The notes under the pieces are model-generated. The model had not been told where the DNA came from and ran no database searches. It saw only the letters and a list, made by a program, of their open reading frames with translations. DNA of 64,000 nucleotides from Tetrapyrgos nigripes (taxonomy: Eukaryota; Basidiomycota; Agaricomycetes; Agaricales; Campanellaceae): contig JAACJM010000043.1 in assembly GCA_013368315.1 (NCBI GenBank), positions 124,001-188,000 of the forward strand, given 5' to 3'. Below, piece after piece: positions 24,931 to 51,189 of this stretch; position 1 is the stretch's first letter; each line of letters opens with the position of its first letter. Position numbers and translations under genes: made by a program.

Positions 24931-25161
24931 GTGCCGCATCCTGAATAATGCCCGACGTGTTGATAGACCCCTTTAACGTTGGATGTTTTGTAAGTATGTA
25001 CTTAGGTAGGCTCGGGAGTCGGCACCTCAGATGAGTCAGATCGCCCAATTTATTGGACACCTAGACAAAACTACTGACTGAGCCATGGAGAATGCTCATA
25101 AGTAGAGGAACAGTGTCGTCATTTTTGGCTCAGGAGTTTGGGTATCAAATGCCAATTTGCA

Positions 25162-26240
25162 CACTGGGTGCAAATACCCATAAATACATTGTCATACTGT
25201 GATATTACTGAAGACTTACTCAGTGCCAATCAGTTTGTAAATCCCCATGTATTATGGAAGTATTATGTTAAAGCCAAGATTTCACAGCAATTCCATAAGG
25301 TTTCTGTAAATCAGGGTGTATTACTGGGGTCTTTCTATGTGAGATTCTGTCACAGTAATACATACTACAATACCATTGAGAAATACAGAAACATTTTGTT
25401 GTGACACAGAGTCACAGTATGTCATAGAGCAATACAGCCTGGATTTAGAGAAGGCTTACACAAATGAAATACTGTAGATACACTGTCATACTATGACATT
25501 ACTAAAGACATACTTAGTGCCAATCAATTGTATATCTCTGTGTATTACAGAAGTATTACAGAAGTATTACAGAAAAGCAAAAATTTCACAACAGTTCCAT
25601 AAGAATTCTGTAAATCAAGTTGTATTACTAGGATTTTTCAATGTGACATTCTGTCACAGTAAGACATAGCATAATACCATTAAGATATACAGAGATACCT
25701 TGATGTGACACATGGTCACAGTATGTCATATAGTAAGACTGGCCAGTTTTACAGAAGATTTATGAGATTAAAAGCTATAGTAAATCACAAGAAATTGTCA
25801 TTGTATTTATGATAGATTTACTGAGTGACAAAATGGTAACAGAAATGGATCAATAAAATCAGGTGTATTATGGAAGCTTTATGGAATCCAAAATATTTCC
25901 ATAGAATGTCATAAGTTCACAGAAAAGTCTTACACCAAGATGGAATACATATAGTATCCTGGATATGCTGAAAGAGTTAAAGTATGACCCCTGTAAGTCA
26001 AGGGGAGTTATTTTAAATTTATTGAATAGCAGGTATTCCATAAATCTTGGGTAAATCATATAGACTTACATAAGATATATATAGAGACGGGAGTTTATAA
26101 AATGATAGTGTAAGAGTGCGAGTCTTACTGTAGATTTATGGAATCACAAGTCAAATTTTTGAAGATAGTGAAGGTGTACAAAAGGTATACAAAATGTGGG
26201 GAGGTGCTGTGACAGTGCTGTGAGCTTGTGAAGAATATCA
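25162..26240. repeat. Left AT-rich terminal arm with internal 300-bp duplication
   Basis: Two tandem copies of about 300 bp (starting near 25195 and 25490) share AGTGCCAATCA, TTCCATAAG, TCTGTAAATCA and CACAGTATGTCAT. The whole arm recurs inverted at about 50140-51186. One clear difference is about 16 bp present near 25900-25915 and absent from the right arm. No gene; one open frame of about 90 codons is shared by both arms only because they are copies. Confidence 0.8.
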
Positions 26241-26244
26241 TTGT

Positions 26245-28550
26245 TGTGAAGGTGTCACAAAAGTGTCATGAAGGTATTGTGAAAGTGTTGCAAAGGTGTC
26301 ATGAAGATGTCATGAAGATGTCATGAAGGTGTCGTGAAGGTGTCACAAAGGTGTCGCAAAGGTGTCATGAAGGTGTTGTGAAGGGGTCATGAAGGTGTCA
26401 TGAAGGTGTTGCAAAGGTGTTGCAAAGGTTTGGTGAAGGTATCATGAAGGTATTGGGAAGGTGTCACAAAGGTATCATGAAGATGTTGCAAAGGTGTCGC
26501 AAAGGTGTCGTGAAGGTATTGCAAAGGTGTCATAAAGATGTCGCTGAAGGTATCGTGAAGGTGTCATGAAGATGTCACGAAGGTATCATGAAGGTATTGA
26601 GAAGATGTCAGGAAGGTATCAGGAAGGTGTTGTGAAGGTATCAGGAAGGTGTTGTGAAGGTATGGGGAAGGTGTTGTGAAGGCATTGGGAAGGTGTCTGG
26701 AGGTATTGTGGTGAAGGTGTGGTGAAGGAGTGTCATGAAGAGGCTGTGAAGGGGTCATGAAGGTATCATGAAGGTGTTGCAAAGGTTTTGTGAAGGTATT
26801 GTGAAAGTGGCGTGAGGGTGTCATGAAGATGTCATGAAGGTGTCATGAAGGTGTTGCAAAGGTTTTGTGAAGGTGTCATGAAGGTAGCGTGAAGGTGTCG
26901 TCATGAAGGTGTTGCAAAGAAGGTATTGTGAAGGTGTTATGAAGATGTCACAAAGGTGTCACAAAGGTGTTGTGAAAGGGTCAGGAAGGTGCCATGAAGA
27001 TGTTGTGAAGGTGTCGTGAAGGTGTTGCAAAGGTTTCATGAAGGTGTTCTGAAGGTGTGCTGAAGGTGTGGTGAAGGGGTGTCATGGTGAAGGTGTTGTC
27101 AAGATGTCATGAAGGTATCGTGAAGGTGCTGTGAAGGTACCTTTTTGCCACCAACATCTTCATGACACCTTCACAATACCTTGAGTGAAGGTGTCGCAAA
27201 GGTGTCGCAAAGGTGTCATGAAGGTGTTGTGAAGGTGTTGTGAAGGTGTTGTGAAGGTGTCATGAAGGTGTTGCAAAGGTGTTGCAAAGGTGTCATGAAG
27301 ATGTCACCAAAGGTGCCGTGAGGGTGTTGCAAAGGTTCGGTGAAGGTATCATGAAGGTATTGGGAAGGTGTCAAGGCAAAGGTATCGGGAAGGTGTTGTG
27401 AAGGTATCGTGAAGGTTTCATGAAGGTTTCATGAAGGTAGCATGAAGGTGTTGTGAAGGTATCAGGAAGGTGTTGTGAAGGTGTTGTGAGGGTGTTGCAA
27501 AGGCTTGGAAGGTATCATGAAGGTATTGGGAAGGTGTTGCAAAGGTATCGGGAAGGTGTTGTGAAGGTATCGTGAAGGTGTCATGAAGATGTCATGAAGG
27601 TGTTGTGAAGGGGTCGTGAAGGTGTCAGGAAGGTATCAGAAAGGTGTTGTGAAGGTAGCATGAAGGTGTCATGAAGGTGTCACAAAGGTGTCATGAAGAT
27701 GTCATGAAGGTGTCGTGAGGGTGTTGCAAAGGTTTGGTGAAGGTAGCATGAAGGTATTGGAAAGGTGTTGTAAAGGTATCATGAAGATGTTGCAAAGGTA
27801 TCAGGAAGGTGTTGTGAAGGCATTGTGAAAGTGTCATGAAGATGTCATGAAGGTGTTGTGAAGGTGTCATTGTGAAGGTGTCATGAAGATGTCTCTGAAG
27901 GTATCATGAAGGTGTCATGAAGAGTATTGAGAAGATGCTGGGAAGGTATCGGGAAGGTGCCATGAAGATGTCATGAAGGTGTTGTGAAGGTATCAGGAAG
28001 GTGTTGTGAAGGTATGGGAAAGGTGTTGTGAAGGTGTTGGAAAGGTGTCTGAAGGTATTGTGAAGGTGTCATGAAGATGTCATGAAGTTATGGTGAAGGA
28101 GTGTCATGAAGATGTCATGAAGGGGTCACAAAGGTGTCACAAAGGTGTTGTGAAGGGGTTGCAAAGGTGTCAAAAAGATGTCATGAAGATGTCGTGAAGG
28201 TATGGTGAAGGAGTGTCATGAAGATGTCATGAAGGGATCACAAAGGTGTCACAAAGGTGTTGTGAAGGGGTTGCAAAGGTGTCATAAAGATGTCATGAAG
28301 GTGTCATGAAGGTGTCATGAAGGTGTTGCAAAGGTTTTGTGAATGTGTCATGAAGGTATCGGGAAGGTGTTATGGAGATGTCATGAAGGTATCATGAAGG
28401 TGTCGCGAAGGTGTCGTGAAGGGGTCGTGAAGGTGTTGCAAAGGTTTTGTGAAGGTGTTCTGAAGATGTCCTGAAGGTATGGTGAAGGGGTGTCGTGGTG
28501 AAGGTGTTGCGAATATGTCGTGAAGGTATTGTGAAGGTGCTGTGAAGGTA
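26245..28550 (+). repeat. 11-bp minisatellite array, left arm (GAAGGTGTCAT type)
   Basis: About 210 degenerate copies of an 11-bp unit with consensus RAAGGTRTYRY. Variation is mostly transitions at positions 7, 9, 10 and 11. Near 27136-27185 a short block flips to the complementary orientation at GGTACCTTTTTGCCACC. At 28549 the array flips again at an identical GGTACCTTTTTGCCAC. Open frames inside are by-products: three 11-bp units make an 11-codon period. Confidence 0.9.
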
Positions 28551-28885
28551 CCTTTTTGCCACTGACATCTTTATGACACCTTCACAATACCTTCACAATG
28601 CCTTCCCAATACCTTCATGGCACCTTCACAAAACCTTTGCAACACCTTCACAAAACCTTCATGACATCTTTATGACACCTTTGCGACCCCTTCACAACAC
28701 CTTCACAACACCTTCATGATACCTTGACAACACCTTATCTTCATGAGACCTTCACGATACCTTCACAACACCTTCCCGATACCTTCGCAGCACCTCCATG
28801 ACACCTTTGTGACACCTTCACAACACCTACACAACACCTTCACAACATATTCATGACACCTTCACAATACCTTCAGACACCTCTC
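28551..28885 (-). repeat. Inverted block of the 11-bp array, left arm
   Basis: About 30 units in the CACCTTCATGA orientation follow the GGTACC switch point. The block is matched by the complement of 47400-47715. Confidence 0.85.
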
Positions 28886-29092
28886 CACTACCTGCATGCA
28901 CCTTCACCCTCCGGGCTGTGTGTACACTGTCTCTTGTCTCTTGACCACACAGTTGAGGCCAGGGCGCCCACATTCATTGGACTGCTGAGAGACCAAGAGG
29001 ATGGGGTTGAAGAGGTAGTGGAAGCAGCTGTCATCATGGAGGGTATCGGAGAGGCCATTGCAACCACAGGTGCCTATGAGGAGCATAGCTTC
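28886..29092. repeat. Unique core segment shared by both arms
   Basis: A 207-bp non-array segment (CTGTGTGTACACTGTCTC near 28916) that recurs inverted at about 47196-47400. Similarity stops sharply at 29092/47196. On one strand it reads as an open frame (PTFIGLLRDQEDGVEEVVEA) that could be a fragment of a coding exon. Confidence 0.7.
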
Positions 29093-29200
29093 CCCGCACC
29101 TGACCCACACCTGACCTGCACCTGACCCGCACCTGACCCACACCTGACCCGCACCCAACCCGCACCCACACCACCTGCACCCGCACCATGCACCAGGGGT
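29093..29200 (+). repeat. GC-rich 11-bp tandem repeat (CCCGCACCTGA)
   Basis: Six to eight units of CCYRCACCTGA begin exactly where similarity to the right arm stops. The period equals that of the main array but the composition is much more GC-rich. Confidence 0.7.
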
Positions 29201-29607
29201 ACCCGCACTTTTCTGGGTGCCGATTAAGTTTTAACTCTACTTATTTGTCTGGTGTCTTTCTCTCACAAGTTTCAAGTGTCTTTTACACGTTACACTCACA
29301 ATTTCTCCTCTTAGATATTTTTGTAATGTACCTAACTCGGGTAGTATAAAGAGTGTGCACTGCGTACTTACACCATGAAATCCAAGTTATTTGCCCTCAA
29401 ACTTCATACCTCTCGGTTCCAACCCAACCCAACCCAACCCTTCAGAACCAGCTCTTTCCCAGAAAGTCCCTATCATCCTCACCTGTTTCGAGTATTCTCA
29501 GCTGTCTTGCTGTATATTTGATAGAATTTAACTGGTAGTAACAATATCATTCTCATTCTTTCAGACTAATGAAAAAGTGTTCTCTGGATTTTATCATGTA
29601 TAGTCAA
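29201..29607. other. Intergenic, no gene recognised
   Basis: Contains CCAACCC repeats near 29418-29438 and the 3' flank of the SHD1 gene. Nothing else is supported. Confidence 0.4.
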
Positions 29608-30958
29608 TCAAATTTTTGCCTTTACCAGCTTTTTACCATCCATCAGGTTCTGGACATATTTCATATCCTCTACCGACATCTTCTCAGTGGGTACCTCAAT
29701 AATGACACCGTTGGTCTTGTGCATCCGGAGTTTACCATCCTTATAGGCAAGCAGGGCTGCATTGACCTTGAATTGACCCGTCCTGTCACACCATGTCCGT
29801 ATGTGATTTTTTGGTGGTGCTATTGGCAAAGAATAGTGATTGAGTGCACGAGAAGATAGAAAGATGGAAAGCCAAAAAACTTACTGCCACCTGGTACCAC
29901 ACGGCTAGATGCCAATGGAGGAGTGCCACTGAATGAGTCCATATGAGAAGATACAGTACTGATCGGTCTATGGTCACCCTTCAAAGTCTTCAGTTTCTGC
30001 AGCTGAAATAGTCGGTTCGAACGTCTCATCTTGACGATCAGTCTCGCGACATATTTCCTATCCTCCACTGACAGCTTCTCAGCAGGTACCTGGATAATGA
30101 TACCGTTGGTCTTGTGCAGCCAAAGGTTACCATCTTTGTAGACAAGCAGGGCCGCATCGAACTCGAATTGGCCTGTAATATCGTGCCAGGTCCATACACG
30201 ATTTTTAGGTGGTTCTGTTGACAATGAATGGGAATTATATGAGACGGTAGACCGATAAAATGAAGATGAAAAGTTGATAACTTACAACCATTAGGATCGA
30301 CTTGGCTACTCGATTGACTGATACAATCATCTTCTACTATAGCCTCACTATCCATCGACCTCTTGACATATGTCATATCCTCCACCGACATCTTCTTAGC
30401 AGGTACCTGGATAATGACACCGTTGGTCTTTTGCAGCCGGAGGTTACCATCCTTGTAGGCAAGGAGGGCTGCATCGACCTTGAATTGACCTGTGATGTCG
30501 TGCCATCTCTGTATGAGATTTTTGGGTGGTGCTGTTGCCAATGAATGGGATACATGAGACGGTAGACTGATAGACCAAAGGTGAAAAGATGATAAATTAC
30601 CACCATTAGGACCAATTTGGCTACTCAATTCACTGACGCTATCATCTTCTATAACCTCTAAGTTTCACCGTTCCAATCGGCATATTTCCCTTCGCATTCT
30701 GAGTTGCTTTAATATTTCTATATGCCTGGCCCGCTGCTCCTCATCCAGATCATCAGGTTCAAGTTGCAGGCCAAGTTCCTCCCTGCTCTGATGCACCCCA
30801 TGCCTTTTGCCAACTTCCACCTCATCACACTCTTCGTAGACTGTTGAAATCCTGGAGTCTTCGTCATCTGTCCGAGTAATCTTGTCCTCTTCCACGGAGT
30901 AAGAATGACGTACAAGACTCTTGGACAACGGCAAATTTGTGATCTCTGTTGATTCCAT
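29608..30958 (-). pseudogene. Gene with three SHD1 (Sla1 homology domain 1) repeats, one per exon, broken
   Basis: Minus-strand exons: 30601-30958, 30286 (or 30289)-30531, 29885-30214 and 29608-29819, with GT-AG introns of about 65-75 bp. Exon 1 starts at ATG 30956-30958 and encodes an acidic, charged N-terminus. Exons 2, 3 and 4 each begin with PPKN and encode one SHD1 unit with the pattern W-D-TGQFK-AALLAYKDG-L-KTNGVIIQVP-EKMSVED-YV. In Sla1-type proteins SHD1 binds NPFxD endocytic sorting signals. Two defects: an in-frame TGA at the end of exon 1 (codon after RRLER-type sequence, near 30664), and the standard splice of exon 2 to exon 3 creates a TAA across the junction. A non-standard donor 3 bases upstream (GTTGTA) would avoid the second. 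An SHD1-only triplet is unusual. Confidence 0.75.
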
Positions 30959-31468
30959 GAATAAGTAGCACAACGATGAAAGGAGGAAGAGAGGGGGAGT
31001 GTCAATTGGGGGAATAGGTTAACAGCCTGACTCGATTTGGTCTTCTTATAAGAACGTTGATGCCGAAATCTTGAATAGCCTATGTCCAATGCGGCTTACC
31101 GCACTGCGCATGGCATATCATGATATTAAGATAGACATCAAGTACACCTATTGTAGCCTGCGGAACAACCGCTCAATGCAGCTTGACTTGGAAAAGTGGA
31201 GTATAAAACTAAGGGGCAGATCAGATGTATACCCTTTGGGGAACCGCAGTATCAGCATACGACCTCAACAAGCTCAAGTATTGCTAGTGTCAGTGACAAG
31301 CACGGGTCGGACGGGTTGCCACAGGTCATAGGTAAGGATATCATGGGTGCGGGTACAGATTTGGAAACCCGCGCTGACCCTTAACGTTTTAACGGTAACT
31401 TTAAGGCAGACCCGCTGTACCCACCCAAACATAGTTTACCTCAATTTGTTGACTCCATTTTGTGTAAT

Positions 31469-31550
31469 TACGAGGCCTTTAGCCTAGTTAACTTATGTCG
31501 TCTTCGCAACTTTTCCACGCCTGCAATTTCTATTGGCCAGTCTCTATGAT
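31469..31550 (+). repeat. SINE-like repeat, degraded copy
   Basis: ATTACGAGGCCTTTAGCCTA, GTTAA and TTATGTCGT match the start of the copy at 1454 in order, then similarity fades and the B box is lost. Confidence 0.45.
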
Positions 31551-31577
31551 GCCGACAACCGAACGAGGACGCCGTCG

Positions 31578-31856
31578 CACTGGGTGCAAACACTTGTAAT
31601 TCCTTGGATATACCAAGGAATTACATAAGACTTACACTGGTACACTCAATATGTAAGTCCACTTGACTTACTGAAGTATTATCAGGGACCACTGTGAGAC
31701 TTTATGCCTTACACTGGTCATATACAATTATTTCTTTTTTTTCGGTCTCTGGTAATACTTCAGTAAGTCAAGTGGACTTACATATTGAGTGTACCAGTGT
31801 AAGTCTTATGTAATTCCTCTGTATATCCAAGGAATTACAAGTGTTTGCATCCAGTG
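31578..31856. mobile_element. 279-bp foldback MITE with CACTGGGTGCAAA ends, TCG duplication
   Basis: The halves are near-perfect inverted repeats: CACTGGGTGCAAACACTTG at the left and its near complement (one mismatch) at the right, with long internal arms and a T-rich centre. TCG flanks both sides. The copy at 57505-57783 has the same length. The terminal bases are shared with the 26-kb element, so both may use one transposase. Confidence 0.88.
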
Positions 31857-31969
31857 TCGGCTTTTTGATCCGACCCAAGCTGTCGTCAATCTTGAAGCTT
31901 GAAGCTTGAAGGCGCGTCGGATTTTCGTAAGTCCTTTCACCTTCACCCTACGATATGCTACTACAGGCC

Positions 31970-32012
31970 TCGTAACTTGCCATGCGAAGCGGTGGCATCT
32001 TTCCCCAGTTTT
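31970..32012 (-). repeat. GCTTCGCATGGCAAGTTAC dispersed repeat
   Basis: The complement of 31972-32010 reads GCCACCGCTTCGCATGGCAA then GTTACGAGGCC, matching 53345-53377 with one or two changes. Confidence 0.55.
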
Positions 32013-32284
32013 CTTAGACATTTCCATAATTCCAATGTCACGCAACTTCATTGCTCACACGCCCGGGGAAAGCCTTTGATCCGAGCGGATAGGCAACGGA
32101 TAGGCATGCCGCATGTGCTGACAGGTCTGATGATCGTGATTAGATATGAGGGCCTTAGGGCCGTAAGCAGCTTCTTTCACAACTTGTCCTGAACGCTCAC
32201 TACAGTATGTACTCGACACCATTTCCTTAGGATTCCTTTGACCATTGCGTTTTTTTTAGTTCGACTCTCGAGACTTCCTCCGTT

Positions 32285-34306
32285 ATGCGCCTCCTAAGTA
32301 CGAAAGACTTCAAAGTCAAGGAGTTCTTCACGGACATTCCGCTTTATGCAATCCTCTCTCACACTTGGGAGCAGGAGGAGGTTACTTATCAAGACATCCA
32401 GAACCTTGACGTCGCTAAATCCAAAGCTGGCTTCCTTAAAGTCCTGGGAGCCTGTGCCCGTGCTCGTCACTATCATTTCGATTGGATCTGGATTGACTCG
32501 TGCTGCATCAACAAAGAAAGCAGTGCCGAGCTCTCCGAAGCGCTCAACTCAATGTATCAGTATTATGAAGACGCAGCGGTTTGTTACGTCTACTTATCAG
32601 ATGTCTCTCGAGATTATCATCCTCGATCCAACTTCAAAGATAGTAGATGGTTCAGGAGGGGTTGGACACTTCAGGAGCTACTCGCACCCGAATTCGTTGT
32701 GTTTTTGGATAGAAACTGGGAAAGGATTGGGACCAGGTGGAGCTTGCGGGATCTAGTCTCGGTAGCTACTGGCATTCCAGTCGATGTACTCAAGGGACAG
32801 ATTATCAGCAAATACAGCATCGCTCAGAGGATGTCATGGGCTGCGTTTCGAGAGACTACGAGGCCGGAGGACCAAGCGTATTGTTTGATGGGGATTTTTG
32901 GGGTCAGCATGTCGCCGATCTATGGGGAGGGTGGAGCGAAAGCCTTCATGCGGCTACAGCAAGAGATTATCAGGATTTCTGATGATCGCAGCATCTTTGC
33001 TTGGGTTGCTGCACCGTCCATGGACCTTGCCTCGAGTGAGGAAGACAAGCCACGGGGTTTGCTGGCTCGATCACCCTATGAATTTAGGATGTCGGGCGAC
33101 GTGCGGCCTTCAATTACGGAAGTCATGGGTAACAAATCATCATATTCCTTCAACAACAACGGCCTACACATTCATCTTCCTCTCAATCCCACCTCTTCCA
33201 GTTCCGTGCACTCCGGCGAAGACATGTTCCTCGCACACCTACTCTGCCAGTCCACGAGAGATGGTAGCTACTTAACCATTTATCTCCGAAAAACGAGTGG
33301 ACATCAATATGTACGATGCTATGCAGACGAAATCCTCTTGACAAGTTCACCGCCGGCGATGGAACGCGTTCGGGAGCTCATGGTCAGAGAGCATCTAGTT
33401 ACAGGGCGCAGATTCCGAATCTCGAATACATCCGGCGCAACAAAGTACAACATTGAACTTCTTCGATCAGCTTGGGACTTCCTTTATCACTCCTCTCAAC
33501 CGGATTCTTGTATAGTCTCTTGCATCGATGAACATACAGTATCTGTTATTCGGAAAATGGATTGGGGGGTTATTCAGTACAAGTCTCAGAAAACTGGGGA
33601 TTTGTTCGGCATTGACTTGACATTCAGTAAACCTGCCCTGAAGATGAATGGTGGAACGTTTATCCGGGATGCGTCCGTTCGAAGGGATACATTGCAAGGG
33701 AAGTTGAATGGTGGAGGCTACATATTCATTGCATCTGAGAGGACAGGAGATCCGCAGGAGAAGATAGAGATTGGTTATCTTGCAAAAGATGATCCCGAAA
33801 TTTGCCTCTGGACTAGTCCATTGCGAGTCCCTGATTTGGGCATCATAGTCTCTTCCAGGTTGAGCACAAAAATTGTCGATTATCATCTCAAGTTCGAAGG
33901 AGTTTTCCCCCCCGATCCGTTTTGTAGGATTACCCAAGATATGGTCTACGCTACCGCCTTCCGACCACATCCCGATGATCTGCAGGAAAGTCATCATACA
34001 TTCCGCGTACTGACTTTTCGATGGGATGATTGGGATGGTCAATGGCCTACGTACATAATTCACGTCGCATTTGGGCTCCAAGGATCTTCAGTTTGGACTG
34101 ACGTTGTTGTACAAAACCCTTCCTTCCACCGAGAAACTTCTGAACGTGTTTGGAAATCCTATCTTGAATCTGGCACAAGGGCTCAAAAGCGAACGAAGGG
34201 GATGGAGGTCAAGTCTAAGGTCGACTCTGAGACTCTGACTGCTGTGATTCAGAAGGCGAACAATCTGCAGCTGGGGGATTACTTGTTGCGTATGCACATA
34301 CAATGA
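32285..34306 (+). CDS. HET-domain protein (673 aa, single exon)
   Basis: One uninterrupted frame from ATG 32285 to TGA at 34304-34306. The N-terminal 150 residues are a canonical HET domain: YAILSHTW near residue 23, DWIWIDSCCINK near 67-78, and RGWTLQELLAP near 125-136. A conserved region follows (RPEDQAYCLMGIFGVSMSPIYGEGG), as in basidiomycete HET proteins, then a variable C-terminal half without a recognised domain. HET domains trigger cell death in vegetative incompatibility and in NLR-like defence of fungi. There is no WD, ankyrin or NACHT repeat, so how it is activated is unknown. The gene is intact inside the putative 26-kb element, while transposon genes around it are decayed, which suggests selection or recent arrival. 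Confidence 0.9.
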   Translation: MRLLSTKDFKVKEFFTDIPLYAILSHTWEQEEVTYQDIQNLDVAKSKAGFLKVLGACARARHYHFDWIWIDSCCINKESSAELSEALNSMYQYYEDAAVCYVYLSDVSRDYHPRSNFKDSRWFRRGWTLQELLAPEFVVFLDRNWERIGTRWSLRDLVSVATGIPVDVLKGQIISKYSIAQRMSWAAFRETTRPEDQAYCLMGIFGVSMSPIYGEGGAKAFMRLQQEIIRISDDRSIFAWVAAPSMDLASSEEDKPRGLLARSPYEFRMSGDVRPSITEVMGNKSSYSFNNNGLHIHLPLNPTSSSSVHSGEDMFLAHLLCQSTRDGSYLTIYLRKTSGHQYVRCYADEILLTSSPPAMERVRELMVREHLVTGRRFRISNTSGATKYNIELLRSAWDFLYHSSQPDSCIVSCIDEHTVSVIRKMDWGVIQYKSQKTGDLFGIDLTFSKPALKMNGGTFIRDASVRRDTLQGKLNGGGYIFIASERTGDPQEKIEIGYLAKDDPEICLWTSPLRVPDLGIIVSSRLSTKIVDYHLKFEGVFPPDPFCRITQDMVYATAFRPHPDDLQESHHTFRVLTFRWDDWDGQWPTYIIHVAFGLQGSSVWTDVVVQNPSFHRETSERVWKSYLESGTRAQKRTKGMEVKSKVDSETLTAVIQKANNLQLGDYLLRMHIQ

Positions 34307-34522
34307 CCTACAATATATATGTATGCTGAGCTTAATTGCTTAAGAGGATATCCTGATACCTTGTTCCTAGCTGAGGAGACCCGAGAGCTAGTTGAATCCT
34401 TCCTCGAGGTTCAACCGGGCAAAACGCGAAGGTATCTTTAGCAAGATTCAGGCCATAGCATAAAAATTATATCTAATATATATCATATATATCTAACTCA
34501 ACTGCAGCCCCTATACAAAGGA

Positions 34523-36351: not shown

Positions 36352-36366
36352 GGTTGACACAGTCAC

Positions 36367-36873
36367 GGTGTTCTATTAGTGAAGAGAGAAAGGCAGAGCA
36401 GAGGCTAAAAAGCCTGGAAAGGTGATGGGCAGTGGGTGACTGGAAGAAAGACGCAGATAACCGCTGACGCACAGTTTTTATGATGTCCGGCGCGGTTCGC
36501 TAAACGCTAAGCGCGATAATGATATTCGGGACAATCATAGATCTTTATCACTTTGATAATATCCGTCACCCCGATCAACTCTCCCTGCTTCATCAGTAAT
36601 CCTTAAGTACTGCTAGGTACTGCTCCACCTCGTTCACGGCCATCTCTCCAGCTAATTTTGGATCCATGCATCCAGAGGAATGCGGAGACTGGGAGCAGGA
36701 ATCGAGACCAAAGTAGCCTGAGGCTGGTAGAATTGACTTATCTCACTAGCGGCGGGCGGGCGATGCTTTATCATTGTTGCGTACGAATCCACAAAGTGTC
36801 GCAGAAATGTTCCAAGGTTACGATGGATATATTATTAGAATGATGTGTACAGCACAGTACAGCACAGACAGTA
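36367..36873. other. Intergenic, upstream of the hydrolase gene
   Basis: Holds the 5' flank of the hydrolase gene, with several GATA sites (about 36515-36560). No TATA box is obvious and no exon is supported. Confidence 0.4.
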
Positions 36874-39143: not shown

Positions 39144-39288
39144 CCTCAGGTAAATTTCTCGTTTGGATATCATTCTTCTGTCTTCGTCTTGGTTCTGATC
39201 CTCTCCCAATCGAACTCACACATTCCTCTCCAACCGTTATCTCCCAGCTCTTCCGTCCTCACACTCACTGCATCATCCAAACACCATC

Positions 39289-40031: not shown

Positions 40032-40973
40032 GGTACATACACTGTATATATAGTGTTAAAGGATTTTATGGGTTTGGTGGTCAGGAAGTTATAGCATGGA
40101 CTTAGACTTTGGACGGATGTCACTACGATGTTACTAGCAAACAGTACTTAATCCAGAGTCCCAAAATGTGTTTCTCGCCTTCGTTTAATCAGACAGAGCA
40201 TATCAGGTCACCTACTATCCGTCGAGCGGATATTTCGGTCTTTTCAGCGTGCTAGCAGCTCGTCATCTCACCCAGTACTAGACCATGAATACCCGATATA
40301 CGTGTATGTTCCCATCTTCCTCTAGGGCCCCTACTAGTATCGGATCGGAATCGATTCGATCCAATCCGCTCGGATGGCTGGCAAATTGGCCTCAATCTGC
40401 ATCCGGCAGATGGTATCCAATGGATGGCTTGCGAAGTGTCAATGCTGACCTGTTGTATCAGTTTTCTCTGTCCGTAAAACACTGAGAAGTTTTTTGTTCG
40501 TAGTTTCTTTCAGATCTACGTGAGGTGTATGCATCCGAACTGGCTCAAAAACCGATAGCAATCTCTCTATCTCTGGCGCGTCGCAATGCAAATTTCGAAT
40601 TCCCGCGCTGCCGACGTAGTGTACAACCTGTACTTTTATATTTTTGGGCTGCCACCAAGCAGCAGCTCACATCGTTGACCATACATCTGGTCAGAAATGC
40701 CTGAGAAGATCCACTTAGGGCATCTTTGGGCTGTGATTCCATGCCTGGGAAAGATTTCTTTTTTCAAAAATTAGACTTGGTCATCATGAGAACAAGTGGA
40801 AGAAGGATATCAATGGGCCTGTCGCTTAGTGGTTTCAGTGTCTCCTTTGCTTACCTAACTTTTTGACTCAGTACTACAAGAGTTCAATCCTTTCTTGCAA
40901 CATTGTTTGTTTTGAGCTCTCTCGACTTACCTAGCACTCAAAAATGTTGTTATATATGCGGTCTGTGAGAAAT
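40032..40973. other. Intergenic with a solo MITE arm
   Basis: At about 40215-40251 CCGTCGAGCGGATATTT continues into a sequence matching the right arm of the MITE at 21406-21517. No other feature recognised. Confidence 0.45.
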
Positions 40974-40998
40974 TCATATTTTTATATTACACAGGCAT

Positions 40999-41765
40999 TC
41001 AGAACATTGTACACAGTCTATGCCAGATAAATATCTGAAAGTATTTACAAAAATCACTGCTAGTGTTGTCAGCTTGAATTCTAAAAAGAACTGAGCAAAG
41101 ACATACCTTATTATTACACCTTGCTCTGTTGTTTTCACCTGGACAATCATAATTTTCACAATTTTTACACTTGTGTCTTCGCTTTGCACGATCATCATTT
41201 CTCCACTCCACAATCTGTAATGTCTGATGTTCAGCCATTTGAGAGGTACCAGCCACAGGCTGAGACCCATAATATGGTAAAGGTTGTAGATATCCATGCA
41301 CAGGATTCATTTGAGATGGTTGAGGCTGATCATTGGGTCCACCAGAAAAAATGGACTGTTCATTTACATCTCCAAACATCTTCATGAATTGCCGCTTTCG
41401 GTCATTCAGAGTAGACAATGGGGCTATTATAGGAGCATCTATATCCATAGTAGACAGTTCTACAGATGGAGGACTGGCTGAACATGAATATGCAAAGTCA
41501 AAATTGTTGTCTGGATTAACATTTGAATGAATTGAAACTTCTGGTTCATGTTCATGCTGCGGCAAAACACCTGGTCTTGAATAATGAGCTGCAGGAAGTG
41601 TTTCTGATACATAAGCTGCAGTATGAATGCGGTCATGATTGGGCTGGCGCTGAACCTGAGATTGGATCATTGTTTGTCTAGTTTTTTGATATTCATCCCA
41701 GGTATTATAATAGTGCTCTAAGTGTTCAGGCAGCTTGTAAAATACACTATTTTCAGCACCTAGGC
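40999..41765 (-). pseudogene. C-terminal fragment of a cysteine-cluster, transposon-type protein
   Basis: On the minus strand a frame runs from about 41765 (LREYGLGAENSVFYKLPEHL) to about 41110, followed by a doubtful exon. The middle is Gln/Pro/His-rich and disordered. The end is a basic cysteine cluster, HKCKNCENYDCPGENNRARC, a probable zinc-binding module often seen at the C-terminus of fungal transposon-encoded proteins. The upstream part is missing: the frame is closed by TGA codons just before 41765. I read it as a 5'-truncated remnant; the family is not certain. Confidence 0.45.
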
Positions 41766-41779
41766 CATATTCCCGCAGT

Positions 41780-42548
41780 CATCATGATCATAATGACAGT
41801 GGGTATAATGTATAGCTCGGTGCTTTGGCATTGGGGCCTGTGCCTATGGGGCTTCAAAATCTTTGCGGCCCGGCGTTTTTGGAAGTATTGCCGAGACAGG
41901 ATTACAGCTCAGAGAAGGCTAGATCTACAGACGATAGTAATGCCTAGACCAGCCTAGAAGCTACCTCACGTGATGTTGTTCCTGAAACGGATCATTTCCG
42001 TTGTGACATATTTCATGACGTGTCAAAGCATCTTACGTTATGTCATTGCTGTCAAAAAGAACAATGAGCGTGCCTTGGTCTCTCACGAAAGTGACAGGCT
42101 CAATACAGTGGTGTTCGTAGTTCCGATACTTTTGTATTGGAACATTGGTAATGCACCTTGTGATACGGGCTGTCAACCTTGCGCAGGGAAAGTAGCCCAC
42201 GAGCGCTTTCTGCTATTGGCCTGGTAGGTTTAAGTTAGATGTCATGTTACATCCTGTGTTAATACAATTGGAAATACTCTGATTGGCTCACCTGGAATAA
42301 CCTCGTGAGAACCCAGGTAAGTACTGCAAGGTGCGAGAATTTAGTCAATTCAGTCTTATCTTTGATATTCCATGCCATCTGCAACAGCTCCCACAGGCGT
42401 GGAGAGACATAAAAATAGAACATATGGAACTGATGAGTATAAATACGAAACGGTTTGGAGCCATTCTGTAGCTACCCAGCTACAGCCACTTTCCATCTTC
42501 TTTGTAACCTACCACAGGTTTTACTCTGCCACATCCTCACTTCGCTCG
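41780..42548. other. Intergenic, no gene recognised
   Basis: No supported exon, long repeat or RNA gene was seen. Confidence 0.35.
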
Positions 42549-42556
42549 GATATGAC

Positions 42557-43644
42557 TAAAGACTGGCACAAGTCCAGGTCAGGTTTTACCTGTGATCCGT
42601 AGACAGGTACCTGATGCATCAAAATAGTGACCTGCGACCTGTTTGAGATCCATGGGAAACAGGTACCTGACCTGCAAGTCATATACCTGCAGGTCACAGG
42701 TTACTTGTATCCAACGAGTCCTTGCAGGTACTCGCAGGTATACCTACAGGTACCTGCCAGAAAACCCAAGGAAACACCAAGTTAACGGTTTAATAAAAGT
42801 TTATAATATATAATACTACTACAACCCTTCATCATCATCTCCACTACTACTGTCTTCTGTATTCTCACTACTGTCCAAATCCTTTACCTTTCTGCGTGAA
42901 TTCAACCTGTTAAACATTTTCACCACCTCTTCCTCTGGTACAAGCCCAGCGTCAAACCACGAGTCTAAGCAAGCGTTTTCGAAGCGATCTGATCACATCT
43001 GGGCGAAATACAGACTTTTTGAGCAAGAAAGAGTCAAGTTCATCAAAGCCCATTCGCATTTTAGCATTTCGGATACCTAGGACTGGCGTGGGGCCGGTTT
43101 CTGACGTGGATTTCACGTCCGAATCGATTGGTGGCGTCTCCGAAGCGATATAATCACATCTGGGGGAACTACAGAGTTTTAAACAAAAGAGAGTCAAGTT
43201 CATCAAAGCCCATTCGCATTTTAGCATTGCGGATAGCTAAAACTTGCGTGGGGCCTGTTTCTGACGTGAACGTTATGTCCAAATTGATGTTGGCATTTTC
43301 AAAGCGATCTGAGCATGTCCGGGTGAGCTATGGACTTTTTGAGCGAACATCATCTACACTTACACCTTCACTTTCAATAGTAAGGTGTACCCGTAGTCAT
43401 ACATAGATTGGTGTATGTACTTCCTGAATAATATAATTTATATTCAAATAATAATAGAGTCATCTTGTACTTAGTTAGGACAGGTACCTGCACAAGTACC
43501 TGTAGCACCCAAAGTCCTGACCCGCAACCTGTCAGTGACCCATGGGAAACAGGTACCTGGACCTGCGGTTCCCATGACCTGCGGGTAAATCAACGGATCA
43601 ACCTGCAGGTACTCATTTAAGACTTGGACTCGTGCCAGTCTTTA
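42557..43644. mobile_element. Non-autonomous hAT element with 8-bp target duplication
   Basis: The inverted ends begin TAAAGACTGGCAC, and TAAAG fits the YARNG rule for hAT ends. GATATGAC stands on both sides (42549-42556, 43645-43652), the 8-bp duplication typical of hAT. Subterminal parts are packed with CAGGTACCTG and ACCTGCAGGT motifs (about 42590-42770 and 43480-43610). The centre has three tandem units of about 165 bp (starts near 42976, 43136 and 43298) sharing CGAAGCGAT, GAGTCAAGTTCATCAAAGCC and GCGTGGGGCC. There is no transposase. Confidence 0.85.
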
Positions 43645-43656
43645 GATATGACCACC

Positions 43657-43678
43657 AACCCTAACCCTAACCCTAACC
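43657..43678 (-). repeat. Interstitial telomere-like repeat (CCCTAA, about 3.5 units)
   Basis: AACCCTAACCCTAACCC continues to 43678, giving three full CCCTAA units plus partial ones. It starts 4 bases beyond the hAT target duplication. CCCTAA is the usual fungal telomere repeat; this tract is internal. Confidence 0.75.
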
Positions 43679-43679
43679 A

Positions 43680-44970
43680 TAAGAGACTCAAAGAAGGAAA
43701 CGGGATTCCTACTTCTAATGGTGGCATGACATTGCCCTATGTGGCATAGAAAATATAGATAGGCTCTGGATTGCCAAACTGATGCCAGCATGGTCCTCCT
43801 CGCCGCTCCTTCCCACTCCAGCAAGCATCTCAATCCATTCACCGACGCTCCGACATTCCCCATTCCTTTTATCAATACTATCCGTGCCGGCTTCAAACAG
43901 ATAGCCAGTCAACGATGACGTGCCCGGACTATGAAGACTTCTCTGGCCGACAGATTCCTTTCAATGACTGGTGGCAGTGGAGATGGATCCGATGGAAGCT
44001 CAGATATGTTGTTCGTCGATGAGAAGAGAAGAGGAGGCAACTCAAGGTTGCTTAACAAACTTAGTAGTCAGTTCCAGACACTTTCCTCAATTATTTCTCC
44101 TCCTCCTGCAGTGCAGTATGTACATAATACACTTAATCAGTTAAAGACATAGTATACATACTTACATACGTACAAATGAGCTACTTACAAAAAATGTCAA
44201 CAATCACTGAAGGCTCATTGTTCCAAATGTGGGTGGGAGGCATGAGGTGAGTTCCAAGCAGAGCTCATTTTCTATATTGGTAAATCACAGTAGTCAAGGC
44301 GAGTTCATGGTCCAGAGTACCTTTGTCTCGCCACTGCACTATTGTTGTGTTCATTAACTTGTCTTTTCTCTAGTCTTTAAACCCATGGTTGTTGCATTCG
44401 TGAGGCACGATGTAAGCCTAGTCTCTCAAAGGCTCATTTCTAGGAGTATATTGGCTGCCACATGGATAGATATATTACTGATTTTTAAGTAGGCAACTCT
44501 GAATTAAACCCTTATCTGTTCTTTCAGAGGGGTGTATGATCTTTGATCATACACCTATGAAAGAATATGAACAAGGCAATCTTCAAGATTGCATACTTGA
44601 CTCCCAATAATATGTCATTCCAGTTGTCAATTTATACACAGGAGTGAGCAAATCACTTGGTTGCTATATCATCCTCGAGAAATATCTACTAATTGAGATG
44701 TCTTGGTGGTGTTGATCATTGTCATTCTTCAACACACTCATCTACATGACAGTGAAGTGTCTGTTGAACACACGACTGTGAATCATTGGAAAAGATCCCA
44801 AACCAAAGATCCTATCATGCTTTCATTAGTGATGAGTTCCTTCATGGTGTCAACTTTGATAGAGATGTCTTGGCAGTGTTGATTATTGTCATTCTTCAAC
44901 ATGCTCATCTTTCGAACACGCGACTGTGGAGTGTCATACTGCCACACAAAATTTGTTCCAATCCTCCCAA
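43680..44970. other. Intergenic with direct repeat and palindrome
   Basis: No gene supported. A block (GAGATGTCTTGG, GTTGAT, ATTGTCATTCTTCAACA, CGACTGTG) occurs twice, near 44693 and 44862. A hairpin lies at 44531-44555. Confidence 0.45.
44531..44555. repeat. Palindrome, 11-bp arms with TTT loop
   Basis: GGTGTATGATC and GATCATACACC flank TTT. Outside, TTCTTTCA and TGAAAGAA extend the pairing after a short mismatch, making a hairpin of about 55 nt. Possibly a tiny foldback element. Confidence 0.65.
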
Positions 44971-44974
44971 TCCT

Positions 44975-45165
44975 GTCCACCCCTACCCCTTTACCTCTTC
45001 ACCCCTACCCCCACCCCTACCTCCCCACCCCTACCTCCTCACCCCTACCTCCCCACCCCCACCTCCCCACCCCACCTCCCCACCCCTACCTCCCTACCCC
45101 CACCTCCCCACCCCTACCTCCCCACCCCTACCTCCCCCTACCCCACCCCTACCCCCCTAGGCTCC
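44975..45165 (-). repeat. C-rich tract, G-quadruplex-prone on the minus strand
   Basis: Repeated CACCCCTACCTCCC units run for about 190 bp. The minus strand reads GGGGTAGG and GGGGTGGGG many times, so several adjacent G-quadruplexes can form. Open frames here are by-products of the repeat. Confidence 0.75.
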
Positions 45166-45301
45166 AATCCTACTTCCAACCCTACTTCAAAAAAAAACCT
45201 TCCTAATAACCCTAAGTCTGAACTTTTCTTCGCAGCTCAGATGAGTAGGTTAGTAGTCTAGTTTCATTTGACGTTCAGAAGCTATACCTAAGTCTTTTAC
45301 T

Positions 45302-46362
45302 AGGGCTTTAACCGATCTGGATTTGGAGAAGGAGACCATTGAGGGAGAGATCAGGACACGGGCGTCTTCCAAGAGAGTTTTAGAGGAAGTTCTGCACGCT
45401 CATTCCCAGATCCCGGGTCTGAATGAGAAAGGTTTAAGGTGTTGGTGGTCGAATGGGAGTCGTTGGGCAAGATTAGCATCAGGTGGTAAGTCACACAGTT
45501 GTAAAGAAGCATCAAATTCTTACATGGACAACAGGTGGAGTTTTCATTTTACCTCTACTAGCTGTATTGGAAATGCGTCATTACTGTCTACGCTCAATAT
45601 CTATCCAGGGATTGTCAGCATTTGGGGACATGCTTCGCCAGCCTCACTCATTCAAAGATAAGGGTAAGATCTCCCTGTTATTCCTCGTAAAGAATTCTTA
45701 ATCAATGAGCATTGTAGCACCTTTGGGATACAGTCTGCTTACGACTGAACTTGTCCCTTTGCTGTCCTTCCTGCATCTCAGCTTACCCTTTACAATGCCC
45801 ACATTTTTTGCATCTGCATTCCGAGTCAACTGCGGCATACCAGAGACTCTTGATTGCCAAGACTTAGTCCTTTCAGACCGGTTTTTTGATTCATTTACCC
45901 AACAGTACGTACTACTGCTACTATCTTGGAGCCCGCCCCTCACATTTTTTGTTTTGACTTAGTCTCCCAGTTCTTTTACATCGTGATATCAACTTTTGGA
46001 GCAGATTTCTCCCAGAACTACAGTTGCCAGAGAAAGATAGGTCATGCTTGGACGATGCAAATTACGTTTTCTTAAACCCAAATCCTTCAGCCTCAAACCA
46101 ACCAGAAAGCGTGAATGAAGACGAGAATCAACATTGCGATGTTAGGTGCAGTGTTAGGCACGAAATCGACAAGGCAGTGAACATCGCCTCACATTTCCTT
46201 ACCTTCACCAATAACTGTGACATTCTTGATGACAACTACATCGTAATCAACACATCTTTCGACATTAGTCATGAAGGTGTCATGAAGGTGTTGCAAAGGT
46301 TTTGTGAAGGTGTCATGAAGGTACTGGGAAGGTGTCATGAAGGTATCATGAAGGTGTTATGA
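45302..46362 (+). pseudogene. Unknown multi-exon gene whose last exon runs into the 11-bp array
   Basis: Exons about 45302-45485, 45535-45663, 45718-45904 and 45963-46362 have GT-AG ends and keep one frame. The first visible exon follows a TAG acceptor near 45301, so upstream exons probably exist. The protein has a charged N-terminal part (EKETIEGEIRTRASSKRVLEE), Trp residues (CWWSNGSRW), a hydrophobic middle and a Cys/His-containing C-terminal part. From about 46270 the codons are those of the minisatellite (HEGVMKVL repeats) until TAA at 46360-46362. The coding sequence was therefore cut by, or fused to, the array. No family recognised. Confidence 0.55.
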
Positions 46363-46755
46363 AGATGTCACAAAGGTATTGTGAAAGTGGCGTGAAGGTG
46401 TCATGAAGGTAGTGTGAAGGTGTTGTGAAGGGGTTGCAAAGGTGTCATGAAGATGTCGTCATGAAGGTGTCATGAAGATGTCATGAAGTTGTCATGAAGG
46501 TATTGCAAAGAAGATATTGTGAAGGTGTTATGAAGATGTCACAAAGGTATTGTGAAGGTATCACAAAGGTGTCGCAAAGGTGTTGTGAAGGGGTCAGGAA
46601 GGTGCCATGAAGATGTCATGAAGGTGTTGTGAAGGTGTTGCAAAGGTTTCATGAAGGTGTTCTGAAGGCATCCTGAAGGTGTGGTGAAGGGGTGTCGTGG
46701 TGAAGGTGTTGCGAAGATGTCGTGAAGGTATCATGAAGGTGCTGTGAAGGTATCT
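46270..46755 (+). repeat. 11-bp array, innermost block of the right arm
   Basis: About 44 units in the GAAGGTG orientation start abruptly within an exon. They end at GGTATCTTTTTGCCACCG, a variant of the GGTACC switch point. Confidence 0.85.
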
Positions 46756-46925
46756 TTTTGCCACCGACATCTACATGATACCTTCACGATACCTTCACGA
46801 TACCTTCCCAATTACTTCCTGATACCTTCATGACACCTTCACAAAACCTTTATGACATCTTTATGACACCTTCGTGACCCCTTCACAACATCTTCACGAC
46901 ATCTTCATGACATCCTCATGACACA
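46756..46925 (-). repeat. 11-bp array, inverted block
   Basis: About 15 units in the CACCTTCA orientation follow the switch point at 46748. Confidence 0.8.
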
Positions 46926-47399
46926 ACATTTCTGGTGCCCAGCCTCAGGCTTTCACTGTGAAGTCTAGTTGTACTGGTGAGTGTCACGTCTCTATCCAAG
47001 GCACTGATCAGCACATTGGTGAGACTCTCATAGGCCTCAGTAAACATCTCATGTGCAAGCGGGTACGTGGCGCTCTTCTGATGGACCTATCCCTGCTCCT
47101 CCACTGGCTACCTCTGCACCAGTCCAGTCAACCCACCTGTGCCTGCTGTTGACATTTCCAGTGCTGCAGGTCCTTGCACTGGCCAGCTCCCTGTTGAAGC
47201 TATGCTCCTCATAGGCACCTGCGGTTGCGATGGCCTCTCCGATACCCTCCATGATGACAGCTGCTTCCACTACCTCTTCGACCCCATCCTCTTGGTCTCT
47301 CAGCAGTCCAATGAATGTGGGCACCCTGGCCTCAACTGTGTGGTCAAGAGACAAGAGACAGTGTACACACAGCCCGGAGGGTGAAGGTGCATGCAGGTG
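46926..47399. repeat. Unique core of the right arm
   Basis: About 470 bp without array units. The part from 47196 matches 28886-29092 inverted; the rest (46926-47195) is absent from the left arm. Short open frames occur (QGTDQHIGETLIGLSKHL), perhaps a relic of a coding region of the parent element. No family assigned. Confidence 0.6.
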
Positions 47400-47715
47400 T
47401 TGGAGAGGTGTCTGAATGAATATGTTGTGAAGGTGTTGTGTAGGTGTTGTGAAGGTGTCACAAAGGTGGCATGAAGGTGCTGCGAAGGTATCGGAAAGGT
47501 GTTGTGAAGGTATCATGAAGGTCTCATGAAGATAAGGTGTTGTCAAGGTATCATGAAGGTGTCGTGAAGGTGTCGTGAAGGGGTCGCAAAGGTGTCATAA
47601 AGATGTCATGAAGGTTTTGTGAAGGTGTTGCAAAGGTTTTGTGAAGGTACCATGAAGGTATTGGGAAGGCATTGTGAAGGTATTGTGAAGGTGTCATAAA
47701 GATGTCAGTGGCAAA
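47400..47715 (+). repeat. 11-bp array block, GAAGGTG orientation, right arm
   Basis: Inverted counterpart of 28551-28885. It ends at GTGGCAAAAAGGTACC, the complement of the left-arm switch point. Confidence 0.85.
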
Positions 47716-50130
47716 AAGGTACCTTCACAGCACCTTCACAATACCTTCACGACATATTCGCAACACCTTCACCACGACACCCCTTCACCATACCTTCAGG
47801 ACATCTTCAGAACACCTTCACAAAACCTTTGCAACACCTTCACGACCCCTTCACAACACCTTCGCGACACCTTCATGATACCTTCATGACATCTCCATAA
47901 CACCTTCCCGATACCTTCATGACACATTCACAAAACCTTTGCAACACCTTCATGACATCTTTATGACACCTTTGCAACCCTTTCACAACACCTTTGTGAC
48001 ACCTTTGTGACCCCTTCATGACATCTTCATGACACTCCTTCACCATACCTTCACGACATCTTCATGACATCTTTTTGACATCTTTGCAACGGCTTCACAA
48101 CACCTTTGGGACACCTTTGTGACCCCTTCATGACATCTTCATGACACTCCTTCACCATACCTTCATGACATCTTCATGACACCTTCACAATACCTTCAGA
48201 CACCTTTCCAACACCTTCACAACACCTTTCCCATACCTTCACAGCACCTTCCTGATACCTTCACGACACCTTCATGACATCTTCATGGCACCTTCCCGAT
48301 ACCTTCCTGGCATCTTCTCAATTCTCTTCATGACACCTTCATGATACCTTCAGAGACATCTTCATGACACCTTCACAATGACACCTTCACAACACCTTCA
48401 TGACATCTTCATGACACTTTCACAATGCCTTCACAACACCTTCCTGATACCTTTGCAACATCTTCACGATACCTTTACAACACCTTTCCAATACCTTCAT
48501 GCTACCTTCACCAAACCTTTGCAACACCCTCACGACACCTTCAAGACATCTTCATGACACCTTTGTGACACCTTCACAACACCTTAGTGACACCCTCCCA
48601 ATACCTTCATGACACCTTCATGCTACCTTCACAACGCCTTTCTGATACCTTCCTGACACCTTCACGACCCCTTCACAACACCTTCATGACGATACCTTCA
48701 CAACACCTTCCCAATACCTTTGCAACACCTTCCCAATACCTTCATGATACCTTCCAAGCCTTTGCAACACCCTCACAACACCTTCACAACACCTTCCTGA
48801 TACCTTCACAACACCTTCATGCTGCCTTCATGACACCTTCATGAAACCTTCACGATACCTTCACAACACCTTCCCGATACCTTTGCAACATCTTCGTGAT
48901 ACCTCCTTGACACCTTCCCAATACCTTCATGATACCTTCACCAAACCTTTGCAACACCCTCATGGCACCTTTGGCGACATCTTCATGACACCTTTGCAAC
49001 ACCTTTGCAACACCTTCATGACACCTTCACAACACCTTCACAACACCTTCATGACACCTTCACAACACCTTCATGACACCTTTGCAACACCTTTGCAACA
49101 CCTTCACTCAAGGTATTGTGAAGGTGTCATGAAGATGTTGGTGGCAAAAAGGTACCTTCACAGCACCTTCACGATACCTTCACGACATCTTGACAACACC
49201 TTCACCACGACACCCCTTTACCACACCTTCACCATGCCTTCAGAACACCTTCACGAAACCTTTGCAACACCTTCACGACACCTTCACGACATCTTCATGG
49301 CACCTTCCTGACCCCTTCACAACACCTTTGTGACACCTTTGTGACATCTTCATAACACCTTCACAATACCTTCTTTGCAACACCTTCATGACGACACCTT
49401 CACGCTACCTTCATGACACCTTCACAAAACCTTTGCAACACCTTCATGACACCCTCATGCCACTTTCACGATACCTTCATGATACTTTCATGACACCTTC
49501 CCAATACCTTCATGACACCTTCACAAAACCTTTGCAACACCTTCATGACACCTTCATGATATCTTTATGACACCTTCATGACCCCTTCACAGCATCTTCA
49601 TGACACTCCTTCACGACACCTTCACAATACCTCCAGACACCTTCCCAACGCCTTCACAACACCTTCCCCATACCTTCACAACACCTGCCTGATACCTTCA
49701 CAACACTTTCATGACATCTTCATGACACCTTCCTGATACCTTCTTGACATCTTCTCAATACCTTCATGATACCTTCGCGACATCTTCATGACACCTTCAC
49801 AATACCTTCAGCGACATCTTTATGACACCTTTGCGATACCTTCACGACACCTTTGTGACACCTTTGCAACATCTTCACGATACCTTTGTGACACCTTCCC
49901 AATACGTTCATGATACCTTCACCAAACCTTTGCAACACCCTCACAGCACCTTTGGCGACATCTTCATGACACCTTCATGACCCCTTCACGACACCTTCAT
50001 GACACCTTTGCAACACCTTTGCGACACCTTCACGACACCTTCATGACATCTTCATGACATCTTCATGACACCTTTGCAACACTTTCACGATACCTTCATG
50101 ACACTTTTGTGACACCTTCACAACAATGAT
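47716..50130 (-). repeat. 11-bp minisatellite array, right arm (CACCTTCATGA orientation)
   Basis: About 215 units, the inverted counterpart of 26245-28550, including the same short flipped block at about 49105-49155. Predicted proteins with an 11-residue period (MTPSQHLHNTF type) are artefacts of a period that returns to frame every 33 bases. Confidence 0.9.
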
Positions 50131-51186
50131 ATTCTTCACAAGCTCACAGCACTGTCACAGCACCTCCCCACATTTTGTATACCTTTTGTACACCTTCACT
50201 ATCTTCAAAAATTTGACTTGTGATTCCATAAATCTACAGTAAGACTTGCACTCTTACACTATCATTTTATAAACTCCCATCTCTATATATATCTTATGTA
50301 AGTCTATATGATTTACCCAAGATTTATGGAATACCTGCTATTCAATAAATCTAAAATAACTCCCCTTGACTTACAGGGGTCATACTTTAACTCTTTCAGC
50401 ATATCCAGGATACTCTATGTATTCCATCTTGGTGTAAGACTTTTCTGTGAAATATTTTGGATTCCATAAAGCTTCCATAATACACCTGATTTTATTGATC
50501 CATTTCTGTTACCATTTTGTCACTCAGTAAATCTATCATAAATACAATGACAATTTCTTGTGATTTACTATAGCTTTTAATCTCATAAATCTTCTGTAAA
50601 ACTGGCCAGTCTTACTATATGACATACTGTGACCATGTGTCACATCAAGATATCTCTGTATATCTTAATGGTATTATGCTATGTCTTACTGTGACAGAAT
50701 GTCACATTGAAAAATCCTAGTAATACAACTTGATTTACAGAATCCTTATGGAACTGTTGTGAAATTTTTGCTTTTCTGTAATACTTCTGTAATACTTCTG
50801 TAATACACAGAGATATACAATTGATTGGCACTAAGTAAGTCTTTAGTAATGTCATAGTATGACAGTGTATTTACAGTATTTCATTTGTGTAAGCCTTCTC
50901 TAAATCCAGGCTGTATTACTCTATGACATACTGTGACTCTGTGTCACAACAAAATGTTTCTGTATTTCTCAATGGTATTGTAGTATGTATTACTGTGACA
51001 GAATCTCACATAGAAAGACCCCAGTAATACACCCTGATTTACAGAAACCTTATGGAATTGCTGTGAAATCTTGGCTTTAACATAATACTTCCATAATACA
51101 TGGGGATTTACAAACTGATTGGCACTGAGTAAGTCTTCAGTAATATCACAGTATGACAATGTATTTATGGGTATTTGCACCCAGTG
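50131..51186. repeat. Right AT-rich terminal arm
   Basis: Inverted copy of 25162-26240, near-identical, ending GGGTATTTGCACCCAGTG followed by GCA. Confidence 0.85.
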
Positions 51187-51189
51187 GCA

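Follow-up and report, generated by a model that had tools for sequence, protein, structure and literature searches.

A 26,025-bp stretch in the genome of the agaric Tetrapyrgos nigripes is one bounded insertion, a conclusion that we regard as virtually certain, and represents a real foldback, cargo-bearing variant of CACTA elements. What is new is that three features come together: ends of CACTA type, foldback arms made of minisatellites, and kilobases of host genes. The element occupies positions 25162–51186 of the window, by which we mean the whole stretch of 64,000 nucleotides that was analysed (contig C43, bases 124001–188000, in an assembly of 98.46 Mb).

Ends, arms and empty target sites

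Inward-facing, exact copies of the 13-bp sequence CACTGGGTGCAAA delimit the element, starting at 25162 on the plus strand and occupying 51174–51186 on the minus strand, and both flanks read GCA (25159–25161 on the left, 51187–51189 on the right). Across the window, this end has nine matches at up to two mismatches, compared with 2.34 expected. Two 279-bp miniature inverted-repeat transposable elements (MITEs) share it: one at 31578–31856, flanked by TCG on both sides and carrying one mismatch in its right end, and one at 57505–57783, flanked by ATA on both sides. Inside the ends lie inverted arms of roughly 4 kb each (25162–29092 against 51186–47196), which align at 92.5% identity over 4,072 columns. 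In each arm, ~1.05 kb of largely non-satellite sequence leads into arrays of an 11-bp minisatellite (Table 1). Over 1.04 kb, each of the two arms finds its best match in the other (99.1%). An earlier note on this DNA, written from the letters alone, had proposed the ends with their GCA flanks, the two MITEs and the giant inverted arms, and all of these were recovered.

The same note had suggested looking in other isolates for an empty site with a single GCA; such sites exist in this same genome, where two paralogous copies of the repeat used as target are uninterrupted. We joined 450 bp of the left flank, one GCA included, to the 450 bp that begin at 51190 and used the product as a query against the genome. 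The joined flanks are uninterrupted at C20:61968–62866 (98%) and C216:15288–16180 (97%). Also matched were each half of the filled site and relatives of lower identity, several of them likewise spanning the junction. Read base by base, the junctions are ...CAATTC GCA CTTGATC... and ...CAATTC GCA TTTGATC... in the two empty sites, and ...CAATTT GCA, element, GCA CTTGATC... in the filled site. The insertion target is a dispersed repeat, and the two empty sites are paralogous, not allelic. At two paralogous sites, then, the flanks run on through one GCA without a break, and none of the DNA between the GCAs of the filled site belongs to the target, in line with the note's reading of a single element. 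An identical 3-mer on both sides would arise by chance in about 1 in 58 cases; that doubt is removed because other pairs of ends match in 29 of 34 cases and because empty sites exist.

A family with shared ends and variable interiors

The exact 13-base end occurs 532 times genome-wide (269 + 263), compared with 0 + 1 for a reversed control. From listings of these ends we picked, without aiming at an exhaustive set, 34 other convergent pairs. Identical 3-bp flanks were found in 29 of them (13 of 14 in one batch, 16 of 20 in another); the other five are C181 (GAG/AAC), C251 (TGA/TCA), C31 (TCA/ATA), C18 (TCC/TCT) and a 2.9-kb pair on C43 (TAA/CTA). All three MITEs in the fetched loci carry a 3-bp duplication. 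One-sided copies lie on C59, C203 and C323, and a copy on C83 runs into the contig end. Next to the C323 copy, bases 3810–4298 of locus L039 hold a frame with a P-loop-like stretch (GPGGIGKT), NLR-type ATPase-like by eye, which ends ~10 bases from the truncated arm and lies outside the element.

Of the relatives, thirteen that have arms and are flanked by a matching duplication were read whole. They are 3.9–12.8 kb long and consist of subterminal arms and arrays that switch orientation along the element; in cargo-poor relatives, the arrays meet around a palindrome centre. The tandem-repeat fraction is 0.30–0.76 in these thirteen and 0.12 in the C181 pair, which is without a duplication. Related pairs in this genome include copies whose ends agree and whose interiors differ, as the earlier note had predicted.

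The 13-bp end is also shared by a second subfamily with 9-bp arrays (loci L085, L086, L087 and L089) and by a third (L088), in which 8-bp arrays accompany a 171-bp subterminal repeat. Across the subfamilies, 38 8-mers are common to the subterminal regions of at least four of five sequences, compared with a mean of 1.18 and a maximum of 5 in 200 shuffles.

Cargo between the arms

The relative on C215 (9.7 kb, TGA duplication) has the skeleton of the window element, whose arms match it at about 90–91%. In place of the C215 centre and ~0.9 kb of the left arm, the window element carries 17.2 kb (29093–46267) with HET, hydrolase-like, glycosylphosphatidylinositol (GPI)-like and decayed SHD1 genes (Table 1). 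This block shows no transposon ends at its borders.

The HET gene is open from its start methionine to 34306, as the earlier note had it, and matches PF06985 (E = 5e-13). It resembles at least 21 genomic places at 74–81% DNA identity. The 17 next-best listed relatives of its protein all come from T. nigripes (66–72% identity over 78–100% of the query); the gene is a member of a large same-species family. The SHD1 gene, also named in the note, has a clear domain match (E = 8e-24) and is broken into several frames. Its segment resembles C89 at 87–92%; the C89 copy was rejected as a simple donor, as it is without the N-terminal part of the SHD1 gene.

The note also listed an intact secreted hydrolase and an intact GPI-type protein. 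The hydrolase-like gene appears intact by its predicted model: all exons of its paralogue P0121 (389 amino acids) are in order at ~86–94%, with no in-exon stop, and two stops fall within intron-sized gaps (residues 1–23 were placed by reading the alignment). It resembles C37 at 89% (92.8% over the main piece). A rough exon join used as query gave no Pfam or PDB-sequence match, and the name comes only from the annotation of relatives as alpha/beta-hydrolase. The GPI-like open reading frame at ~39289–40031 is present, labelled by appearance, and has no Pfam match.

When the cargo was searched against the genome (best 38 of 1,355 candidates scored), no listed match spanned the block, and a recent origin of the cargo by copying of a single genomic locus was not supported. 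The region 36.9–40.7 kb, which holds the GPI-like frame, had no match among those listed. The repeat at 40726–41761 has three other copies at 98% and overlaps most of a 259-amino-acid open frame (40999–41778) without a Pfam match. Ten interior frames compared with Pfam, in no search aimed at captains, gave no Starship captain match.

Table 1. Features of the element, in window coordinates
Feature	Position	Strand	Remark
Left target-site duplication GCA	25159..25161	.	Single GCA in empty sites C20 and C216
Left terminal inverted repeat (CACTGGGTGCAAA) and non-satellite subterminal arm	25162..26241	+	Related copies elsewhere in genome
Left 11-bp minisatellite arrays	26242..28875	+	26242–28549, then 28576–28875 in opposite orientation
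Truncated 217-bp copy of family module; inner end of left arm	28876..29092	+	
Host-type DNA block, 17.2 kb	29093..46267	.	Replaces centre of related element C215
Decayed SHD1-domain gene	29223..31018	-	29223–30782 resembles C89:226552-228777
Nested 279-bp MITE	31578..31856	.	Related ends, TCG duplication
Open HET-domain gene	32279..34306	+	Met at 32279
Alpha/beta-hydrolase-like gene, apparently intact	34526..36354	-	Exons in order; paralogue on C37
GPI-type protein-like open reading frames, by appearance	39289..40031	+	
Three dispersed-repeat segments within cargo	40726–41761, 42552–43655, 43761–45215	.	
Inner 11-bp arrays of right arm	46268..46924	-	Reaching palindrome centre of C215
Complete copy of family module, right arm	46925..47422	-	
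Right 11-bp minisatellite arrays	47423..50125	-	47423–47694 and 47721–50125
Right subterminal arm and terminal inverted repeat	50126..51186	-	
Right target-site duplication GCA	51187..51189	.	

Outside the element, the window contains a 404-bp direct repeat (1711–2114 and 16282–16685, 95% identity).

Other giant units

Six of the examined pairs, the window element included, exceed 15 kb. Matching duplications flank four of them: the window element (26.0 kb), C28:503445–531846 (28.4 kb), C86:129224–158444 (29.2 kb) and C131:105812–226981 (121.2 kb; flanks ACA/ACA; loci L045 and L046). The search for empty sites covered these four, not C31 or C251, and found contiguous ones for each. For C28 the empty site is C181:49992–50088 (97%) and for C86 it is C29:192819–192914 (94% over junction bases 3–97). 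The C131 target is an abundant repeat: its 97-bp junction is full-length at 39 of the best 40 of 644 candidates, three of them at 100%, and the remaining one covers bases 1–95. For C131, C28 and C86, the empty sites are alignments across the junction, not base-by-base readings, and the units are known from ends, flanks and junctions alone. On C251 (5963–85655; loci L049 and L050), the ends lie 79.7 kb apart and the outer flanks are reverse complements (ATTAATGA/TCATTAAT), indicating an inverted duplication or an assembly fault.

Superfamily and transposase

Fungal EnSpm elements are described as having CAC..GTG termini and 3-bp duplications, and Plavaka elements as having TGT..ACA or CATCA..TGATG termini, in the relevant portions of PMC12730594. 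The window element has 5'-CAC..GTG-3' termini and a 3-bp duplication, the latter backed by its empty sites and by the other pairs, and repeated subterminal motifs, partly through shared descent. EnSpm/CACTA is therefore the best fit, and Plavaka was rejected as the family because its termini differ. We consider CACTA-type mobility very probable. The long inverted arms containing tandem repeats are those of a foldback element, and the CACTA ends around host gene sequence, with no transposase among the matches listed, correspond to Pack-CACTA. Membership of Mutator/Foldback, as for Tm1, was rejected: the duplication there is 9 bp, and here it is 3 bp.

Genome-wide, we counted at least 163 Plavaka matches (123 of 510 candidates scored), 117 Transposase_21 matches and at least 173 KDZ matches (150 of 345 scored). 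None of these listed matches lies inside the window element. Among them, only two of the 35 pairs enclose one, C131 (Transposase_21) and C31 (KDZ). On C131, Transposase_21 matches at 153650–154051, in a frame of 791 amino acids; ~0.14 such matches would be expected in this unit by chance. The C31 KDZ match (33759–34139) was set aside, as that pair is without a matching duplication. In loci L085–L089, inspected by eye and not by a Pfam scan, no transposase was seen among the frames listed, the long ones being translated satellite arrays. The earlier note had suggested searching for a CACTA/Plavaka transposase with these ends: the termini fit the EnSpm/CACTA half of that pairing, not Plavaka, and no such enzyme was identified among the listed matches.

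Origin of the cargo-bearing unit

We consider it probable that the element is one non-autonomous EnSpm/CACTA-type transposon with foldback architecture, which gained its cargo at an earlier site and then moved to the GCA site. A transposase supplied in trans would recognise the 13-bp ends together with the motif-rich 1-kb subterminal regions; the element would be cut out and then inserted at a staggered 3-bp target, an event whose product is seen at the GCA site. At the earlier site, the palindrome centre may have broken and taken up the cargo during repair, or neighbouring elements on either side of a gene block may have fused; for Pack-TYPE elements, capture by neighbouring insertion followed by remobilisation has been proposed in a passage of PMC8903248. 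Most likely, the enlarged unit would then have moved to its present position. The position of the cargo, where C215 has its palindrome centre, and the occurrence of the same arms with different interiors in relatives count for this reading. Taken by itself, the claim that the cargo was on board at the time of insertion is moderately likely. Several results weigh against the proposal: no second copy with this cargo is among the matches listed (best 38 of 1,355 candidates, genome-wide); comparison by eye of the listed matches of three families with 35 pairs found no transposase with these ends; two of the six giants, C31 (18.4 kb) and C251 (79.7 kb), are without a matching duplication; and the shared 8-mers partly reflect common descent, two of the five sequences being relatives. 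Mutual arm similarity was also set aside as weak proof of unity, as mutual-best arms occur in only 3 of 14 compared pairs (the window element, C215 and C35). Of the cargo transposon that the earlier note proposed, the anatomy is borne out, and transport is what we infer.

Accretion after insertion is rather unlikely and is kept open because no second cargo-bearing copy was found among the matches listed. A C215-like foldback of 9–10 kb would have landed at GCA, and 17 kb of host DNA and repeats would have entered its fragile centre later, through ectopic repair and nested insertions, the enlarged unit never having moved. The dispersed repeats and the nested MITE inside the cargo agree with such a history, as does the interior of the one-sided C59 copy, where frames resemble nested transposon genes (by eye, with no family search). 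It accords less well with host-type genes in a 17-kb block free of transposon ends at its borders, or with four large units that have clean duplications and empty sites, the three others being known from ends and junctions alone. The existence of one-sided copies (C59, C203 and C323) and the 1-in-58 chance of a 3-bp flank match could instead suggest two unrelated elements that face one another, the DNA between them being native to the chromosome, which is the alternative raised in the earlier note. That alternative is refuted by the contiguous flanks with one GCA at two paralogous sites, unless both are secondary precise excisions, and the mutual-best arms also speak against it; its probability is close to nil. 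Nor is it at all probable, judging from the contig sequence, that arms of different elements were misassembled around cargo belonging elsewhere. The arms are repetitive, with many copies in the genome, and the palindromic flanks of the C251 pair would be expected of a faulty assembly or of an inverted duplication; yet the window's own arms agree at 92.5% over 4 kb, compared with ~81–91% at best between an arm and six relatives, and two false joins would be needed.

Implications

Bounded insertions in this family are as long as 121 kb, and their empty sites persist. DNA transposition is said to lose efficiency above about 6 kb of cargo, in the part of a 2019 review that treats it (PMC6431247); the one genome studied here holds insertions of 26, 28, 29 and 121 kb whose 3-bp duplications are clean and whose empty sites survive. 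If the cargo travels, as in the reading that we favour, mushrooms have in CACTA-type ends a means of relocating entire blocks of genes, some of them from the expanded HET family. More tentatively, and with less than even confidence, we suggest that the trans-mobilised CACTA elements of T. nigripes form an open-ended class whose palindromic minisatellite arms serve to capture genes: chromosomal DNA would be taken up at the unstable centre, and whole units, from 0.28-kb MITEs to 121 kb, would still transpose with a clean 3-bp duplication. Fungi would then have, parallel to Starships, a second route for moving gene blocks with HET genes, one driven by a transposase. The three subfamilies, with the same 13-bp end and different 11-, 9- and 8-bp arrays, also bear on how minisatellites originate and spread.

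Relation to known elements

Judged by titles and the beginnings of abstracts, the papers listed in searches of the open-access literature include no earlier description of a CACTA-type foldback family or of these T. nigripes elements. The papers compared below are cited for the portions that concern each system. With fungal EnSpm/CACTA elements (the CMC/CMCT clade), ours share CAC..GTG termini, 3-bp duplications and motif-rich subterminal regions (PMC12730594); they differ in their kilobase inverted minisatellite arms and in having, in the window element, no transposase among the matches listed. Their size of 26–121 kb compares with 16–20 kb in the enlarged CACTA families of the 2019 review (PMC6431247).

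Foldback elements such as Drosophila FB and Ising TE and nematode Tm1 likewise have long inverted arms with tandem repeats, variable size and DNA between the arms (PMC6431247, PMC3169594). Ising TE carried large segments from one foldback copy to another (PMC6431247), and the arms of Tm1 contain a repeated 14-bp motif (PMC3169594). Tm1 is Mutator-like with 9-bp duplications (PMC3169594), whereas here 3-bp duplications accompany CACTG ends.

Pack-CACTA and other Pack-TYPE elements also place CACTA-type ends around host gene sequence (PMC8903248). Those are described from plants (PMC8903248), whereas the present element comes from a fungus, has foldback arms and encloses a whole open gene and an apparently intact one rather than fragments. 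The CACTA-like Jozin of Chenopodium combines captured gene fragments with a 5.5-kb satellite array (PMC8978399); Jozin is 16.5 kb long and its single array lies towards the 3' end, in contrast to the inverted arrays that form both arms here. Finally, Starships are large cargo-bearing fungal units, reported also from the basidiomycete Tremella fuciformis (PMC13066641). Their classification centres on a tyrosine recombinase, whereas the T. nigripes elements are marked by kilobase inverted arms and CACTG ends.

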